Shown: positions 43,626 through 51,178 of the stretch, piece by piece
How positions within the stretch are numbered: position 1 is the first letter of the stretch
Layout of the letters: each line of letters begins with the position of its first letter
From: Granulicella paludicola
GTDB taxonomy: Bacteria; Acidobacteriota; Terriglobia; Terriglobales; Acidobacteriaceae
Reading direction: 5' to 3'
DNA length: 64,000 bases
Assembly (NCBI RefSeq): GCF_025685545.1
Contig: NZ_JAGSYC010000023.1
Location: forward strand, 372,001 to 436,000
Translations under genes and position numbers: made by a program
The notes under the pieces: model-generated
Databases searched by the model: none
Seen by the model: the letters and a program-made list of their open reading frames with translations, nothing else
What the model was told of the DNA's origin: nothing

Positions 43626-43653
43626 TTGACTTTCAGGGGCTGGCCGCATAGTT
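43626..43653 (+). promoter_or_regulatory. Putative promoter of the histidine operon leader
   Basis: TTGACT, a 16-base spacer and CATAGT; TAGTTT one base on is an alternative -10. Transcription would start near 43660, only about three bases before the leader-peptide ATG. The leader would then be leaderless or use a slightly upstream start. Resemblance only. Confidence 0.38.
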
Positions 43654-43662
43654 TTAAAAGCA

Positions 43663-43746
43663 ATGAGCACTCTGCGTCATCATCATGGGCACCACCATCA
43701 CCACGCAAACAATGCGTCGGCGGCTGTGTCCGGTGTGGCGAAGTAA
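43663..43746 (+). CDS. hisL: Histidine operon leader peptide
   Basis: 27 residues, too short for usual gene calling. It starts at ATG 43663 and ends with TAA at 43744. It reads MSTLRHHHGHHHHHANNAS..., with eight His among residues 6-14 and codons CAT and CAC mixed. A run of His codons 170 bases before hisI and just before a hairpin-terminator is the hallmark of transcriptional attenuation. When charged tRNA-His is scarce the ribosome would stall here and change the fold of the RNA downstream. No Shine-Dalgarno is visible; translation may be leaderless or start weakly. Confidence 0.85.
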   Translation: MSTLRHHHGHHHHHANNASAAVSGVAK

Positions 43747-43820
43747 GCAAGAGAGAACGCCCAACAGGATTCAAGAAGAACCAAAGCCCGCTGACGCGCA
43801 TACCGCGAGCGGGCTTTTCT
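43714..43820 (+). promoter_or_regulatory. His-attenuator: antiterminator and terminator structures
   Basis: Terminator: AAAGCCCGCT (43783-43792) pairs perfectly with AGCGGGCTTT (43808-43817), with CGCG pairing inside and TTTTCT after it. Antiterminator: GCGTCGGCGGCT (43714-43725), ten bases past the last His codon, pairs with AGCCCGCTGACGC (43785-43797) over 12 positions with one G-U and one bulged C. The two structures share the same terminator 5' arm and exclude each other. A stalled ribosome at the His codons leaves 43714-43725 free, so the terminator cannot form; a ribosome at the leader stop covers it, so the terminator forms. Confidence 0.82.
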
Positions 43821-43875
43821 GTGTGCGGGTACTGCGCGTATGGCGACAACTGAGAGAGACCGAAGGGGAGTGACG

Positions 43876-44205
43876 ATGGCAGACGCGGTAGAGATCAACT
43901 TTGCGAAGGACGGCGGCATGGTCGCCGGGATTGTGCAGGATGCAGGTACGGGGCAGGTGTTGATGCTTGGGTTCCTGAACGAGCAGAGCTATGCCAAGAC
44001 ACTGGAGACCGGGTTTGTCACGTTCTGGTCGCGCACGCGGAGCAAGCTGTGGATGAAGGGTGAGACGAGCGGCAATCGACTGAAGGTGGTCGAGATGGCG
44101 ACGGATTGCGATAACGACGCGCTGCTGTTCAAGGTGGTGGTCGAAGGCGATGGGCTGGTGTGCCACGAGGGCACGGTGAGCTGCTTTACGAAGCCGATTG
44201 TTTAG
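43876..44205 (+). CDS. hisI: Phosphoribosyl-AMP cyclohydrolase
   Basis: 109 residues from ATG 43876, preceded by GGGGAG; an upstream ATG at 43840 is less likely. It opens the purine ring of phosphoribosyl-AMP, the third step of histidine synthesis. The zinc-site segments TDCDNDALLF and LVCHEGTVSCF and the substrate loop FWSRTRSKLWMKGETSGN are all present. The HisE pyrophosphohydrolase domain is not fused and hisE is not in the window. It is the first structural gene after the attenuator. Confidence 0.94.
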   Translation: MADAVEINFAKDGGMVAGIVQDAGTGQVLMLGFLNEQSYAKTLETGFVTFWSRTRSKLWMKGETSGNRLKVVEMATDCDNDALLFKVVVEGDGLVCHEGTVSCFTKPIV

Positions 44206-44286: not shown

Positions 44287-45162
44287 ATGGCAAAGAAGCT
44301 GAAACTGGGAATTCCGAAGGGCAGTTTGCAGGACGCGACGATTGCGTTATTTGAGCGTGCGGGCTGGCGGATCTATGCGAGTGGACGGAGCTACTTTCCG
44401 ACGATCGACGATGTGGAGATCGAGTGCATGCTGGTGCGTGCGCAGGAGATGGCGCGGTATGTGGAGCATGGCGCGCTCGATGCCGGGCTGACCGGGAATG
44501 ACTGGATTCTCGAGAACCAGAGCGACGTGGAGCGCGTGACGGCGCTGACGTATTCGAAGGCGAGCCGGACGAAGGTGAAGTGGGTGCTGGCGGTTCCGGA
44601 GGATTCTCCTTACCAGAAGCCCGAAGACCTGGCCGGCAAGACGATCGCGACGGAGCTGGTGGAGTATTCGAAGCGCTACTTTGCGGAGAAGAATATCCCG
44701 GTGAAGGTGGAGTTCAGCTGGGGTGCGACGGAAGTGAAGCCGCCGACGCTGGCCGATGCGATCGTCGAGGTAACGGAGACGGGATCGAGCCTGCGGGCGA
44801 ATCGGCTGCGGATCATCGAGACGCTGATGGAGAGCGAGACGCAGTTCATCGCGAACAGGAAGGCCTGGGCGGACGATTGGAAGCGCAGCAAGATTGAGAC
44901 GCTGAGCCTGATGCTGAACGGCGCGATGGATGCTCAGAACCAGGTGGGCCTGATGCTGAATGTGAAGCGCGCGGACCTGGACCAGGTGCTGAGCGTGCTG
45001 CCTGCGCTGAATTCGCCGACGATCAGCGAGCTTCGCGATAAGGAGTGGGTCGCGCTGAATACGATTCTCGAGAGCCATACGGTGCGCGACGTGATTCCGA
45101 AGCTGAAGGCTGCGGGCGGCGCGGGCATTGTGGAGTATCCGCTGAGCAAGGTTGTTCTGTAA
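44287..45162 (+). CDS. hisG: ATP phosphoribosyltransferase, long form
   Basis: 291 residues from ATG 44287. It makes phosphoribosyl-ATP, the first and feedback-controlled step. [23 protein letters not shown] opens the catalytic region; [22 protein letters not shown] and the C-terminal HisG_C domain ([20 protein letters not shown] to SKVVL) identify the long, HisZ-independent form. The C-terminal domain is the allosteric His-binding site. It has no Shine-Dalgarno other than the hairpin edge GGAGAACG. Confidence 0.95.
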
Positions 45163-45186: not shown

Positions 45187-45582
45187 ATGAAGATTGCGTT
45201 TCTAGTCATTCTGATTTTGGCTGCGATGGTGCCGCTGGTGCGGTTTCTGCTACAGCGTTCGCGTGAGCAGAAGGCACAGAAGGACGGCCTGGTGCTGTAT
45301 GCCACGGTGATCTCGCTGGAGCCGGTGAAGGTGTTTGGCAAGCCATCGCCGGTGATGAAGATCAAGATGTGGGTGCAGCAGCCGGGCGGTGAGCGACGCG
45401 AGGTTTCGCTGAGCAGCCGGATTGCAGCTGGGCAGAATGTGGCTCCGGGCGTGATGCTGCCGGTGGTCGTTGACACGAAGGACCCGAAGAAAATCTATCC
45501 GGCCGGGCCTGATGCGATGAAGCGCGTGGTGCTGACGGGTTCGCGGGAGCAGCGTCGCATGATGAAGAAGCAGGGGATGTGA
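45187..45582 (+). CDS. Membrane-anchored protein of unknown function in the his operon
   Basis: 131 residues. One N-terminal helix (AFLVILILAAMVPLVRFLL) is followed by a basic hinge (QRSREQKAQKDG) and a beta domain (LVLYATVISLEPVKVFGKPSPVMKIKMWVQQP) that ends with a basic tail (REQRRMMKKQG). This looks like a DUF3592-type periplasmic or cytoplasmic beta domain. Its TGA overlaps the hisD start (TGATG), so it is translationally coupled. No link to histidine synthesis is known. Confidence 0.72.
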   Translation: MKIAFLVILILAAMVPLVRFLLQRSREQKAQKDGLVLYATVISLEPVKVFGKPSPVMKIKMWVQQPGGERREVSLSSRIAAGQNVAPGVMLPVVVDTKDPKKIYPAGPDAMKRVVLTGSREQRRMMKKQGM

Positions 45583-46856
45583 TGAAGATTGTGCAGACGT
45601 TCGGCGAAACAGCGGCGGCAGCCGAGGCTGCGATTGTGCAGCTGGAGCAGCGCGGCGCCACGAACACGGCGAAGGTCGATGGCGTGGTGCAGGAGATTCT
45701 GGCAGATGTGCGCGCGCGTGGCGACCAGGCTGTTCGTTCGTACTCGGCGAAGTTCGATGGACTGGGCGATGAGACGCCTCTGCTGGTAAGCCGCGAAGAG
45801 ATGCAGGCGGCGTGGGACGAGACCAGCGAAGAGTTGAAGGCGGCGATGCGGCTGGCGCAGGCGAACATCCGCGCGTTTGCAGAGAAGCAGCTGCCGCGTG
45901 CGTGGAGCTTTCGGCCGAGCGAAGGGATGGAGGTTGGGCAGATCATTCGACCGCTGGGCAGCGTAGGCTGCTATGTGCCGGGCGGAAGGTATCCGCTGCC
46001 AAGCACGCTGCTGATGACAGTGACTCCGGCGCAGGTGGCGGGTGTGGAGCGCATCGTGGTGTGCTCGCCGAAGCCAGCGCGCGAGACGCTGGCGGCTGCG
46101 TGGATTGCAACGCATGAGGCTGCGGGCGTGGTCGAGGTGTATCGCGTGGGCGGGGCGCAGGCTGTCGCCGCGATGGCTTACGGCACCGAGACGATTGGCG
46201 CAGTCGACAAGATCGTCGGGCCGGGAAATCTTTATGTAACGGCGGCGAAGGTGGCGGTGTCGCAGGAGACGGGCATCGATATGCCGGCGGGGCCGACGGA
46301 GATTGTGGTGACGAGCGAGGTCGGGGATGCTGCAGGCATTGCGGCGGATATGGTAGCGCAGGCTGAGCATGATCCGGAGGCGCTGGCTGTATTGATTACA
46401 TCGCAGACGGCGTTGGCGGAGGCTGTGGCTGCGGAGGTCGAGAAGCAGGCTGCAGGCAACGAGATTGCGAAGCAGTCGCTGGCGGCGCAGGGCCACATCT
46501 TTGTGACGGAGAGCGCGGCAGAGGCCCAGGCGTTGACGAACCGACTGGCTCCAGAACATCTCACCGTGGATTCCGGCGCAGACGTGCGCTGGGTGAAGAA
46601 TGCGGGCAGCGTCTTCATTGGCCACTATGCGCCGCAGTCAATGGGCGACTACATCAGCGGGCCGAACCATGTGCTGCCGACGGGACGCAACGGTCGTGTG
46701 CGCGGTGGGCTCAGCGTCCTCGACTTTGTAAAGGTGATTACGGTGCAGCAGTACACGCAGGCTGCCCTGCGCGAGGTTGGTCCGCATACAATTGCGCTGG
46801 CTGAGGCAGAAGGTCTGGTCGGCCACGCGGAGAGCGTGAGAGTGAGGATGCGATGA
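45582..46856 (+). CDS. hisD: Histidinol dehydrogenase
   Basis: 424 residues from ATG 45582; it oxidises histidinol to histidine in two NAD-dependent steps. Family signatures are GCYVPGGRYPLPSTLLMT, GIDMPAGPTEIVV, APEHLTV and the zinc/catalytic ISGPNHVLPTGRNGRVRGGL. It overlaps the preceding membrane-protein stop and the following hisC start (ATGA), so the whole stretch is one coupled transcript. Confidence 0.96.
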   Translation: MKIVQTFGETAAAAEAAIVQLEQRGATNTAKVDGVVQEILADVRARGDQAVRSYSAKFDGLGDETPLLVSREEMQAAWDETSEELKAAMRLAQANIRAFAEKQLPRAWSFRPSEGMEVGQIIRPLGSVGCYVPGGRYPLPSTLLMTVTPAQVAGVERIVVCSPKPARETLAAAWIATHEAAGVVEVYRVGGAQAVAAMAYGTETIGAVDKIVGPGNLYVTAAKVAVSQETGIDMPAGPTEIVVTSEVGDAAGIAADMVAQAEHDPEALAVLITSQTALAEAVAAEVEKQAAGNEIAKQSLAAQGHIFVTESAAEAQALTNRLAPEHLTVDSGADVRWVKNAGSVFIGHYAPQSMGDYISGPNHVLPTGRNGRVRGGLSVLDFVKVITVQQYTQAALREVGPHTIALAEAEGLVGHAESVRVRMR

Positions 46857-48058
46857 GCGTTGCTTCGAAACTTGCTGCGGGCATTCCGCAGTCGTTGCTG
46901 GAGGAGTTGCGAGCGGTGGGTGGTCCGGATGAGGCAGAGATTCTGCACAGCCTGAGCCATCTGCCTGCGGCGATGCGCGCAGAGCCGCGTCGCGCGGTGC
47001 TGGCAATGCCGGAGTATCATCCGCCGCTGGCAGGCCGCGATGCACTACGACTGGACTTCAACGAGAACACGTTTGCACCAAGCCCTGCGGTGATTGAGGC
47101 GGTGCATGCGCTGACGGCTGAGTCGATGACGATCTATCCCGAGCGGCATGGCGTGGAGCAGATCGTCGCGAAAAAGTTTGGGCTGACGCCCGAGCAGGTG
47201 CTGCTGACGAATGGCGTGGACGAAGCGATCCATTTGATGGCCTGCACGTTTCTCGACGAGGGCGATGAGGCACTGATCTGTACGCCGACGTTCTTTATGT
47301 ACGACGTTTCGATTGGCCTGATGACGAGCCAGTTGAAGCGTGTCCAGACGGACGATTCGATGGAGTTTCCGTTCGAGCGATTCATGGCGGCGATCACGCC
47401 GAAGACCAAGCTGATCATCGTAGCAAGCCCGAATAATCCGACGGGTTCAACGGTGAGCCGCGAGCAGCTGCTTGCGATTGCGAAGGCTGCTCCGCAGGCC
47501 GTGATGATGGTGGATGAAGCGTACTTCCACTTCTTTGGTGAATCGACGCTGGGCGACGTGGACGAGGTGCCTAATTTGATTGTCGCGCGGACGTTTTCGA
47601 AGGCGTATGGGCTGGCAAACCTGCGCATCGGCATGCTGGCTGGCGATGCTCGGCTGATTGGATATGTGCGCAAGGTGGCCTCGCCATACAACGTGAATGG
47701 TGTGGCGCTGGCGGTGCTGCCGGGTGCGCTGGCGGACGATGAATATCTGAACTGGTATGTGGAGCAGGTGCATGCAGGCCGTGAGCGCGTGCAGGCGGCT
47801 CTGCAGGCGCTGAACGTGCGGACGTGGCCGAGTGCGGCGAACTTCGTACTGCTGGATATCGGCGCGCGCCACAAGGAACTTTGCACGCGGATGCATGCCC
47901 ATGGCGTGCTGCTGCGCGACCGCTCGGGCGATCCGGGATGCGAAGGGTATGTGCGGATCACGATCGGCGTGGAAGAGCAGGTAACGCGCGGGATTGCGGC
48001 GCTGGAGACGGTGCTGGAAGAGATGCAGTGGACGCCGGAAGAAGGTCGAGCCAGATGA
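46853..48058 (+). CDS. hisC: Histidinol-phosphate aminotransferase
   Basis: 401 residues, about 45 longer than many HisC because of an N-terminal segment (SKLAAGIPQSLLEELRAVGGPDEAEILHSLSHLP) before the conserved YHPPLAGRDALRLDFNEN. The PLP lysine lies in ARTFSKAYGLANLRIGML, and the aldimine pocket NNPTGSTVS is intact. It transaminates imidazole-acetol phosphate using glutamate. It overlaps both hisD and the next small membrane gene by four bases (ATGA). Confidence 0.94.
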   Translation: MSVASKLAAGIPQSLLEELRAVGGPDEAEILHSLSHLPAAMRAEPRRAVLAMPEYHPPLAGRDALRLDFNENTFAPSPAVIEAVHALTAESMTIYPERHGVEQIVAKKFGLTPEQVLLTNGVDEAIHLMACTFLDEGDEALICTPTFFMYDVSIGLMTSQLKRVQTDDSMEFPFERFMAAITPKTKLIIVASPNNPTGSTVSREQLLAIAKAAPQAVMMVDEAYFHFFGESTLGDVDEVPNLIVARTFSKAYGLANLRIGMLAGDARLIGYVRKVASPYNVNGVALAVLPGALADDEYLNWYVEQVHAGRERVQAALQALNVRTWPSAANFVLLDIGARHKELCTRMHAHGVLLRDRSGDPGCEGYVRITIGVEEQVTRGIAALETVLEEMQWTPEEGRAR

Positions 48059-48249: not shown

Positions 48250-48452
48250 ACGAGATCGATCCGCAACGGAAGAAGATCGCAGTGCTGGCGGTGTGCATCT
48301 GCACGCTGAACATGCCGTTTATGCTGCTGATGAAGCATAGCCAGGGGACGAGTTACTTTCCTGAGATGGTGGCTTTCTATGTGGCGGCAATGGCATTGCT
48401 GACTACCTACACGGTCAAAGAATTTTTGAAGTACAGGCGGAGTGGACGATGA
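48246..48452 (+). CDS. Second small membrane protein in the his operon
   Basis: 68 residues from ATG 48246, coupled by ATGA to the genes on both sides. Helices are at about 10-28 ([19 protein letters not shown]) and 42-57 ([17 protein letters not shown]), ending [10 protein letters not shown]. It resembles the previous small protein in size and topology but not clearly in sequence. The two may form a small complex. Confidence 0.7.
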
Positions 48453-49075
48453 GCAATGGATTGAATGAGGCAGTGGCGACCGAGACCGGACGCGTTGGGA
48501 CGATTGAGCGGAACACGCTGGAGACGAAGATCTCGCTGCGGTTGAATGTGGATGGCATGGGCACGTACACCGTGTCGACGGGCATCCGTTTCTTCGATCA
48601 CATGCTGGAGAGCTTTGCCAAGCATGGCGGTTTCGACCTGACGCTGAAGTGCGTGGGCGATCTCGACGTAGACCAGCACCACACAGTGGAAGATGTGGGC
48701 ATCGCGCTGGGAGAGGCCTTTGCCGAGGCGCTTGGCGACAAGCGCGGGATTCTGCGCGCGGGCTACTTTGTGATGACGATGGATGAGACGCTCGCTGTGT
48801 GTGCTGTCGATCTATCGGGGCGCGTGGCCTGCGTGGTCGACGATCAGTTGACAGCCCCGCTGGTGGGCGACCTGGTAACGGAACTGGTGCCGGACTTCTT
48901 CGATGGCTTTGCGCGGGGAGCAAAGTGCAACATCCATGTGAAGACGATGTACGGGCGGAACAACCATCACAAGATCGAGGCGATCTTCAAGGCGTTCGCT
49001 CGGGCGATGCGTGGTGCGTGCTCGAAGGACGAACGGATGAAAGAGCTGTTGCCGAGTACGAAGGGCTTGCTGTAG
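48449..49075 (+). CDS. hisB: Imidazoleglycerol-phosphate dehydratase
   Basis: 208 residues, the single-domain form without the fused histidinol phosphatase of enterobacteria. It carries two manganese-binding halves: [21 protein letters not shown] and [21 protein letters not shown], each with the HHxxE pattern, and the family [20 protein letters not shown]. It dehydrates imidazoleglycerol phosphate, step six of the pathway. No histidinol-phosphatase gene is seen in the window. It overlaps the preceding small gene by four bases. Confidence 0.96.
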
Positions 49076-49110: not shown

Positions 49111-49383
49111 ATGGAAGAAGCCCCTCAATGGCGAAAGAGTGTTGCCCTAACAGGCATGGTGCTTGTCGGCTTGAACCCTATTTATTGGATTCTAGCCCTC
49201 AACATTGAGGGACGATTTAATCTCTCCGATCGCGTCTTCGGCGATCTCATACTGACGGGTGTGCTGATAGGGATAATTTCCCTCTCTTTCAGTTTCTTCG
49301 CAACAGGCATGAGGCGCGCCTTGCTGATTGTGCTTGCACTTCTTGAAATGTTTTTATGGTCGTTTATGGCGGTGGGAATGTGA
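49111..49383 (+). CDS. Small membrane protein between hisB and hisH
   Basis: 90 residues from ATG 49111, preceded by AGAGGT. It has at least three hydrophobic segments (ALTGMVLVGLNPIYWILAL, FGDLILTGVLIGIISLSFSFF and ALLIVLALLEMFLWSFMAVG). Base composition is AT-richer than the his genes on both sides, which suggests later insertion. Its TGA overlaps the GTG start of hisH, so it is coupled. No family is recognised. Confidence 0.68.
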   Translation: MEEAPQWRKSVALTGMVLVGLNPIYWILALNIEGRFNLSDRVFGDLILTGVLIGIISLSFSFFATGMRRALLIVLALLEMFLWSFMAVGM

Positions 49384-49991
49384 TCGCTGTCATCGACTAT
49401 AAAGCGGGCAATCTTACAAGCGTCGTCAAGGCACTGCGCTTTCTCGGTGCGGACGATGTTGTCGTCACGCAGTCGCATGAGGATGTGCTGAAGGCAGACA
49501 AGATTGTGCTGCCGGGTGTGGGGCACTTTCAGGCTACGCAGCTGCTGGAGGACCTGCGGCTGACGCAGGCGACGCGCGAAGCCGTAGCGAAGGGTACACC
49601 ATTCCTCGGCATCTGTGTTGGCTTGCAGTGGCTATATGAGGGGTCGACGGAGGCTCCGGGGACAGCTGGGCTGGGGCACTTTGCTGGGCAGTGTGAGCGG
49701 TTCCCTGCTGTGTATGAAGGCGAGGAGTTGAAGTCCCCGCATGTGGGGTGGAACTCTCTCGAAGAGGTGCGGGCGGATTCGCGGCTGCTGCGCGGCGTGA
49801 AGCCGGGGAGCTTTGTGTACTACACGCATAGCTGGCGTGCTCCGGTGAGTGCGGACACGGCGGCGAGCACGCTGTATGGCGGCGCGTTTACCGGAGCCGT
49901 GGAGCGCGGCAATGTGATGGGCGTGCAGTTTCATCCGGAGAAAAGTGCGGAGACCGGGCTGAAGGTGTTGAATAATTTTCTGGAGTTATAG
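49380..49991 (+). CDS. hisH: Imidazole glycerol phosphate synthase, glutaminase subunit
   Basis: 203 residues from GTG 49380, which gives the family N-terminus (IAVIDYKAGNLTSVVKAL); an ATG at 49356 would add eight residues without family support. The nucleophile is Cys79 in LGICVGLQWL, with His185 and Glu187 in GVQFHPEKS. It releases ammonia from glutamine and delivers it to HisF. The HisF gene is not immediately downstream; a 408-base unknown gene intervenes and hisA is missing. Confidence 0.95.
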   Translation: MIAVIDYKAGNLTSVVKALRFLGADDVVVTQSHEDVLKADKIVLPGVGHFQATQLLEDLRLTQATREAVAKGTPFLGICVGLQWLYEGSTEAPGTAGLGHFAGQCERFPAVYEGEELKSPHVGWNSLEEVRADSRLLRGVKPGSFVYYTHSWRAPVSADTAASTLYGGAFTGAVERGNVMGVQFHPEKSAETGLKVLNNFLEL

Positions 49992-50006: not shown

Positions 50007-50414
50007 ATGCAGACGGTGATCAGATATGAAAATGTCGTGAAGGAGATGCTGATCCAACTCCCCGCGCTCATCATCTTCGATGAGGAGCAGCACCTCGGGA
50101 TGATTGAGGATAATCTCGATCTTGCTTACGTCATATTTGGATCGCTTCTGGTTCCTTTTCTTGAATCCGCAATTGCTCGTGGCGATAAAGAAACGCTGCG
50201 ACAGGGTTGCAACTTCCTTGAGCAGATATCTGCGGATTCACGACAAGACTTGGCACTTGAGAATCTGATTGGCGTTGAGATAGGCGAGTGGTTGGAATTT
50301 GTTTGCGGAGAAAGTGTTATCGCATCTCTTCTCGGAGAAGAGACGAAACGAGTTTGTAATTATGTACCCGGACTGGCAACACAAAGACGAATGCTAAAGG
50401 GGTTGCCATGCTGA
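50007..50414 (+). CDS. DUF7674-like protein between hisH and hisF
   Basis: 135 residues. The composition is AT-richer and more acidic than its neighbours. The sequence is alpha-helical and shows blocks such as [68 protein letters not shown]. This resembles the DUF7674 type, whose relatives often occur beside polymorphic-toxin immunity genes as I recall. It begins 15 bases after hisH and its stop overlaps the hisF ATG by seven bases. It therefore sits inside the coupled operon at the place where hisA is normally found. Confidence 0.6.
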
Positions 50415-51178
50415 CGAAACGAGTGATTGCCTGCCTGGATGTTCGCGGCGGCCGAGTGGTGAAGGGGATTCAGTTCGTCGATATCGTCGATGCGGGCGAT
50501 CCGGCGGAGCTGGCGCATCGCCATGCGGCGGCGGGTGCGGATGAGATCGTGCTGCTCGACATTACCGCGACGCATGAGGGTCGCGGCACGCTGATCGATA
50601 CGGTGAGGCGCACGGCGGAGAAGTTGTTTGTACCGTTCACGGTCGGCGGTGGCATTCGCTCAGCCGAAGATGCGGAGGCTGTGTTCACTGCGGGCGCGGA
50701 CAAGGTCTCTATCAACAGCTCGGCGATTGCGCGGCCGGAGTTGATTGGGGAGATTGGTTCGAGCTTCGGGGCGCAGGCGGTGATCGTGGCGATCGATGCT
50801 CGGCGCGGCCCGAACGGTGTGAGCGATGCCGAGGTGTATGTCAGTGGCGGGCGCAAGCCGACCGGGCGGAATGTAGTGGAGTGGGCGCGCGAGGCGGAGC
50901 AGCGCGGGGCGGGCGAGATTCTGTTGACCTCGATGGATACGGATGGGATGCGCAATGGATTCGATTGCGAGCTGACGCGCGCGGTGAGCGAGGCTGTGCA
51001 GATTCCGGTGATCGCGAGTGGTGGCGCTGGCAGCGCTGCGCACTTTGCGGAAGTCTTCAAGCTGGGTAAGGCGGATGCGGCGCTGGCGGCGAGCATCTTC
51101 CACTTTGGCGTGACGGATTCGCGTGCGCTGAAGGCGGAGGTCGCGGCGGCGGGCGTGGCGATGCGGCTGCCTTGCTAG
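50408..51178 (+). CDS. hisF: Imidazole glycerol phosphate synthase, cyclase subunit
   Basis: 256 residues, a complete (beta/alpha)8 barrel. [20 protein letters not shown] holds the catalytic Asp11, and the second catalytic Asp lies in [34 protein letters not shown] and [16 protein letters not shown] are phosphate-binding loops. It is HisF rather than HisA by the CLDV and IDAR blocks. With HisH it forms imidazole glycerol phosphate and AICAR. It is the last his gene in the window. Confidence 0.96.

Follow-up and report, generated by a model that had tools for sequence, protein, structure and literature searches.

The window analyzed here, a 64,000-nucleotide stretch of the Granulicella paludicola genome, carries a histidine biosynthesis operon on its forward strand, and the operon and leader features described below all lie on that strand. 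The first gene of the operon is hisI (43876..44205, AAGGGGAG), which matches NF000768 with 129.3 bits (cut-off 126) and has a Shine-Dalgarno sequence at 43863-43870. It is followed by hisG (44287..45162; TIGR00070 and TIGR03455), hisD (45579..46856; TIGR00069), hisC (46853..48058; TIGR01141), hisB (48449..49075; NF002111), hisH (49356..49991; TIGR01855), and hisF (50408..51178; TIGR00735), each above the cut-off of its models. At least two ORFs of the operon have no NCBIfam match, namely a small ORF at 45187..45582 and an ORF of 135 amino acids between hisH and hisF at 50007..50414. A hisA-like gene, scoring under the family cut-off, was located outside the operon (G000:C21:86068-86733); none was seen within the operon, and no His leader was found upstream of the hisA-like gene.

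Upstream of hisI lies a leader ORF of 27 codons (43663..43746, MSTLRHHHGHHHHHANNASAAVSGVAK) that is conserved in relatives. The preliminary description of this DNA had counted eight His codons at 43678-43704, and translation confirms the count: the interval contains eight His codons and one Gly codon, which places tandem codons for the end product of the operon in a short leader ORF. In an alignment of 77 rows (the window and 76 named loci), codons 11 to 14 are CAY in 68, 74, 71, and 75 rows, with CAC and CAT mixed, and at the preceding positions His codons are retained less consistently (39 to 71 of 77 rows). The commonest base at His codons 8 and 11 to 14 accounts for 97%, 90%, and 70% at the first, second, and third position, and in the last four His codons most of the variation falls on the third base, which is the pattern of translated His codons. 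Within segment 2 of the RNA (codons 18 to 21), the third base in this alignment is as conserved as the first (84%), which is the pattern of a paired RNA strand.

The leader RNA can form three helices. The intrinsic terminator (43783..43817), a hairpin of segments 3 and 4 followed by a U-rich tail to 43821, pairs 43783-43792 with 43808-43817 through 10 perfect pairs, as had been proposed, and has an additional inner 4-bp stem (43795-43798/43804-43807). The antiterminator, in which segment 2 (43714..43725) pairs with segment 3 (43785..43797), also stands as first drawn, with 12 pairs, one G-U, and one bulge, and appears in the minimum-energy fold of 43711-43803. Since both helices use 43785-43792, they are mutually exclusive, and the overlap upholds the earlier claim that they share one strand. 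The third helix, which the preliminary description did not contain, is a protector (anti-antiterminator) spanning 43698..43723, in which the region of the last His codons pairs with segment 2 (43698-43707 with 43713-43723). In the window's row of the alignment, the core of this helix is slipped by one base.

Taken by itself, the window is not unusual. Its whole-leader fold has a z of -1.13, and 23 of 200 shuffles fold equally well. A simple pattern scan of the window returned no promoter-like site and one terminator-like site, which lies elsewhere; the leader terminator was missed because its loop exceeds the limit of the scan, and the leader promoter because its -35 and -10 boxes match at 8 of 12 bases where the threshold is 9. 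The significance of the element therefore comes from comparison with relatives. Two further features were noted in passing. A box between the leader stop and the terminator (43756-43771, roughly ACGCnC..CAGGAT) recurs in the window's genus; in the window fold it takes part in a hairpin inside the antiterminator, 43728-43740 with 43758-43770, whose loop contains the leader stop codon. In 29 of the 80 named loci GCTG, often GCTGCG, occurs at most 14 nt downstream of the terminator stem.

A His-rich leader, defined by at least five His per 10 residues and a start within 450 nt, was found before hisI in 141 of the 170 acidobacterial regions, a total that includes duplicates; subtracting named/unnamed duplicates from the leader-positive regions and adding L046 leaves 125 distinct loci. 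The leader ORF was present in 30 of 30 loci from the window's genus or family and in 80 of 80 records of the named set, in agreement with the expectation of the preliminary description that close relatives would retain it. Of 20 additional regions sampled from the family, the order, or the class, 16 reach the threshold; those that miss it are L037, whose contig begins 266 nt upstream, L049, L050, and L046, the last with a weaker leader (only HHRIH) and a strong match between segments 2 and 3. A hairpin with a T-rich tail was seen in all 80 named loci, a count that has no shuffled control. Named HisI matches with 78-89% identity include Granulicella, Bryocella, Edaphobacter, and Terriglobus, and the lineage of Bryocella is Acidobacteriaceae, class Terriglobia. 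Across the phylum, 40 regions were hand-picked from a sample of 247 genomes, 162 of which have HisI, with a single region for most families; the leader precedes hisI in 15 of these regions and is lacking in 25. In at least L154, L160, and L164, translations read by eye reveal a HisF-like frame directly 5' of hisI, so another gene comes before hisI in these regions. Families f53, f65, f23, f32, f36, f51, f81, f69, and f41, all with the leader, are marked as belonging to the same phylum and not to the same class, and f36 contributes one leader-positive and one leader-negative region.

Controls rarely reached the leader threshold. In 1600 mononucleotide shuffles of the named regions, five His per 10 residues occurred twice and was never exceeded, and the opposite strand of the 80 named regions gave at most four. 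Regions upstream of other genes (trpE, ilvB, hisS, and leuA) gave five or six in 2 of 40, and one of these two (L179) is a His-rich lipoprotein-like ORF. Directly upstream of trpE in the window (7776-7612, - strand) lies a small ORF rich in His and Pro that has a lipoprotein-like signal (..LTSIMTLGLAGCYHRHHHDDHYPPPPPP..), with a similar stretch before trpE in the relative L177; the ORF possibly encodes a metal-binding lipoprotein, and a naive search takes it for a His leader. Within 600 nt upstream of trpE, ilvB, hisS, and leuA, in 10 genomes each, no leader recurred across genomes, in a search that is weak in that the leuA matches are under the family cut-off in 10 of 10 genomes and the ilvB match in 1 of 10, and in that the hisS match of the window's genome begins at residue 68. 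Single genomes gave three Trp in eight residues before trpE (L174) and five Ile/Leu/Val in eight before ilvB (L181, L183, and L185).

A covariance model of the element matched the window's genome once at E 0.01. HisI was found in 51 of 61 genomes (the window's own and relatives), and in 40 of these 51 a model match lies just 5' of hisI; in seven of the other 11 (G038, G039, G041, G043, G044, G051, and G054) the ORF search found a leader. The relatives set contains 53 model matches, 13 of which do not adjoin hisI. Thirteen stretches were read after the model searches, and four of them have a His leader: L231 is the weak leader of L046, and three, reached through weaker hits in the phylum sample, are his operons of other families, with genes named from their translations. 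L220 has a His leader followed by a hisZ-like gene and hisG, and in L221 and L222 the leader is followed by hisG; all three leaders have terminators. The remaining stretches (L219 and L223-L230) look unrelated or unclear. The pairing of segments 2 and 3 beats 95% of shuffles in L221 (0.014) and L231 (0.0) and falls below that level in L220 (0.104) and L222 (0.276). As judged from these sequences, the device can precede other first genes (hisG and hisZ).

Two peculiarities of the sampled records deserve mention. L070 and L073 are titled Verrucomicrobia bacterium and Rhodanobacteraceae bacterium, and both carry an acidobacterial HisI and the attenuator; the title of L070 is probably wrong, as the locus coincides with that of a same-genus genome (G017). 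In six genomes of the window's genus or family (G003, G004, G020, G028, G031, and G034) no HisI was found, including two (G004 and G031) rated 99-100% complete, and these genomes are possible histidine auxotrophs or contain assembly gaps.

All three helices covary in the 77-row alignment. In the antiterminator 89.4% of the cells are paired, and 33 cells are changed on both sides as compared to a shuffled mean of 14.4; the corresponding values are 85.9%, 40, and 10.8 for the terminator and 95.1%, 33, and 8.5 for the 5-bp core of the protector, in which four of the five pairs have changes on both sides. For each helix, none of 500 shuffles of the 77 sequences reached the count of both-side changes, the paired percentage, or the covariation score, with the reservation that the counts are inflated by related rows in the alignment. 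Registers slid along the alignment pair 29-50% (antiterminator), 31-55% (terminator), and 6-68% (protector) of the cells, and the closest is the protector shifted by two (68%). The number of pairs with double changes is not above that of shuffles for the antiterminator (four of 12, reached by 215 of 500) or the terminator (four of 14, reached by 83 of 500), and shuffles show more pair types than the terminator does (498 of 500 reach its number). Covariation in relatives, which had been suggested as a check on the two stems then recognized, was thus found for both of them and for the protector as well.

The pairing between segments 2 and 3 was also evaluated by duplex energy, with eleven terminators set by hand, as the automatic finder returned none for L133 and wrong or overextended hairpins elsewhere. 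In 42 of 62 loci, and in 12 of 17 family representatives, no more than 5% of shuffles match the energy; the other 20 of the 62 loci miss this level. Against partners swapped in from other families, only 18 of 62 reach the 5% level in either direction, because a CCCGC core is common to most terminators. RNAalifold on alignment A1 returned eight antiterminator pairs, three protector pairs, and two others. It returned no terminator; a single nested fold cannot show both.

The promoter, which is not mentioned in the preliminary description, occupies 43626-43654 and consists of a -35 box, TTGACT (43626..43631), that is conserved in the named relatives, and, after a 17-nt spacer, a -10 box, TAGTTT (43649..43654), which ends 8 nt before the leader start codon. 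The leader thus lies between promoter-like boxes and the first of the his genes. All 80 named relatives have a -35 box matching at five or more of six positions and a TAnnnT at 16-18 nt within 60 nt 5' of the leader. Among the 125 distinct loci, the -35 box reaches five of six in 113, and the best one is lower in 12. The gap between the -10 box and the start codon is 8 or 9 nt in 72 of 113 loci, and it is 5-11 nt in 97 of 125 distinct loci as compared to 50 of 2480 control windows; at least three of the 28 loci outside this range (L052, L106, and L108) are there because the script chose a later in-frame ATG. Shine-Dalgarno-like 4-mers precede 8 of 63 distinct named leaders, 46 of 63 hisI starts, and 198 of 1260 random positions, and are thus no commoner at the leader than at random positions. 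In the 80 named loci, the spacer between terminator and hisI, which is as short as 26 nt and was scanned apart from the terminator itself, contains no second promoter with a -35 of four or more of six.

A -10 box directly 5' of a start codon that has no Shine-Dalgarno signal is the arrangement of a leaderless mRNA. In Streptomyces lividans the mean distance from the -10 box to the start site is 6.3 nt (PMC8079986), and when this distance is applied here the transcript would begin within about 2-3 bases of the AUG; for the window, the predicted transcription start is at about 43660-43663. Leaderless genes were predicted by Zheng et al. in three of three Acidobacteria genomes, with an average of 13.3% (PMC3160421). 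The sensor ORF is therefore probably translated from a leaderless mRNA, with the start site as a prediction from sequence.

Taken together, the conserved His codons, the promoter, and the three covarying helices make us highly confident that the locus is a ribosome-mediated transcription attenuator of the hisIG...F operon. The his-attenuator logic read earlier from this single leader is supported by conservation and by the covariation of both stems on which it was based and of the protector. We infer that the leader senses tRNA-His charging, and likewise the start site, leader translation, termination, and order of folding. RNA polymerase would start on the leader AUG or no more than about two bases from it, and a ribosome would load on the leaderless 5' end. 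When charged tRNA-His is plentiful, the ribosome would clear the His codons, the stretch that holds the last of them would pair with segment 2 as the protector, and segment 3 would be left free to pair with segment 4, such that transcription terminates ahead of hisI. Under a shortage of charged tRNA-His, the ribosome would sit on the His run and cover segment 1, segment 2 would pair with the emerging segment 3, and the polymerase would read through.

Energy calculations agree with the two end states and show that equilibrium folding alone does not yield the switch. The most stable state of 43696-43820 is terminator plus protector (-42.3 kcal/mol). If segment 1 is covered, RNA that ends at 43803 folds into the antiterminator (-30.7 kcal/mol). 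Before segment 4 emerges, however, the equilibrium fold is the antiterminator whether or not a ribosome has stalled, and with segment 4 present equilibrium favors the terminator even when segment 1 is covered (-35.7 kcal/mol for 43711-43820). The choice would thus have to be kinetic, set by the order of folding. The choice between folds is also regarded as kinetic in known attenuators.

Other readings of the locus were weighed. The hairpin could terminate transcription constitutively or act as a processing signal, and the His-rich ORF could encode a functional small peptide that binds metal and not a sensor. For this, the lipoprotein-like ORF upstream of trpE offers a precedent in the same genome; but the leader has no signal sequence, it is tied to his operons, the third bases of codons 18-21 are conserved as in a paired RNA strand, and the protector and antiterminator covary, which makes this reading very improbable. 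We give equally little credence to translational attenuation, in which the hairpin would hide or expose the ribosome-binding site of hisI. Such variants of amino-acid attenuators are known (PMC9413887), but here a T-rich stretch follows the hairpin, the hairpin lies a median of 61 nt 5' of the start of the HisI match in the 80 named loci, and the hisI Shine-Dalgarno sequence of the window is outside it.

A milder departure from the preferred reading, a transcription attenuator with a leaderless sensor, would keep the attenuator as proposed and give the leader an ordinary 5' UTR, transcribed from an unseen upstream start. The start sites are predicted rather than mapped, and the loci with a low -35 match (12 of 125) or a gap outside 5-11 nt (28 of 125) would fit such a start, but the 8-9 nt gap in 72 of 113 loci and the lack of Shine-Dalgarno signals make it unlikely, though less so than the two readings above. 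For the attenuator with a leaderless sensor, we consider it reasonably probable that much of Acidobacteriota (Terriglobia and at least one further class, with hisI, hisG, or hisZ as first gene) carries a form of it that RF00514 does not see.

The nearest known relative by design is the enterobacterial leader, Rfam RF00514 (His_leader), which, like the window, has an ORF with a run of His codons and exclusive hairpins before a his operon. The window scores 19 bits (E 0.79) against this model, which falls short of the gathering cut-off of 49, and none of 20 related loci matches it at gathering score; the earlier statement that the element is built from sequences different from the enterobacterial ones is thus borne out. 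The gene order differs as well, with hisI first in the window and hisG or hisZ elsewhere, and, unlike the enterobacterial leader, the acidobacterial one has no Shine-Dalgarno signal and a start codon that adjoins the promoter. The protector of the window is as in classical attenuators. The design of the Salmonella his attenuator was described by Elf and Ehrenberg, including an extra hairpin that was suggested to lower basal readthrough (PMC1183508). A T-box(His) also tunes his genes to tRNA-His charging (PMC9413887), and does so without a leader peptide, but neither the window nor the 20 related loci gave an Rfam match of any kind at gathering score. At a permissive Rfam threshold, Bp2_287 (opposite strand, 24.1 bits, cut-off 70), Trp_leader (18.4 bits, cut-off 41), and CRISPR-DR28 (15.7 bits, cut-off 35) appeared and were rejected.

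The preliminary description had stressed a setting outside Proteobacteria. The acidobacterial setting stands, but the departure itself is not new, since His-leader attenuators were already reported in Firmicutes (PMC9413887, PMC2965389). Those of the Bacillus cereus group, Eubacteriales, and Erysipelotrichales are likewise unrecognized by RF00514; they have three to five His codons in a row and belong to another phylum, and the likeness is drawn from their published description (PMC9413887). Among the matches listed in the open-access literature, no his attenuator in Acidobacteriota was found, and in the available excerpts of Korolev et al. 2016 acidobacterial leader genes appear only in distance statistics (PMC4833913). 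The mechanism is known; the sequence family, the phylum, and the leaderless His sensor are apparently new within the open-access literature searched. The element is a textbook switch made from sequence that the known model does not see, and dozens of lineages provide natural variants of it.

The leaderless His sensor is the most distinctive trait. Sensor ORFs that likewise begin at the transcription start site are found in trpL of Sinorhizobium meliloti (PMC7298713) and in trpL1, leuL, ilvL, and thrL of Streptomyces lividans (PMC8079986); these serve other amino acids in other phyla, and their start sites come from data, whereas the one here is predicted. If the prediction is correct, ribosome-polymerase coupling would have to begin on a nascent 5' AUG that lacks a Shine-Dalgarno signal, and the element would be a natural system for studying how RNA polymerase and a ribosome that loads directly at the 5' AUG stay coupled. 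The leader RNA or peptide, once released, could then also have a role in trans, as in Sinorhizobium.
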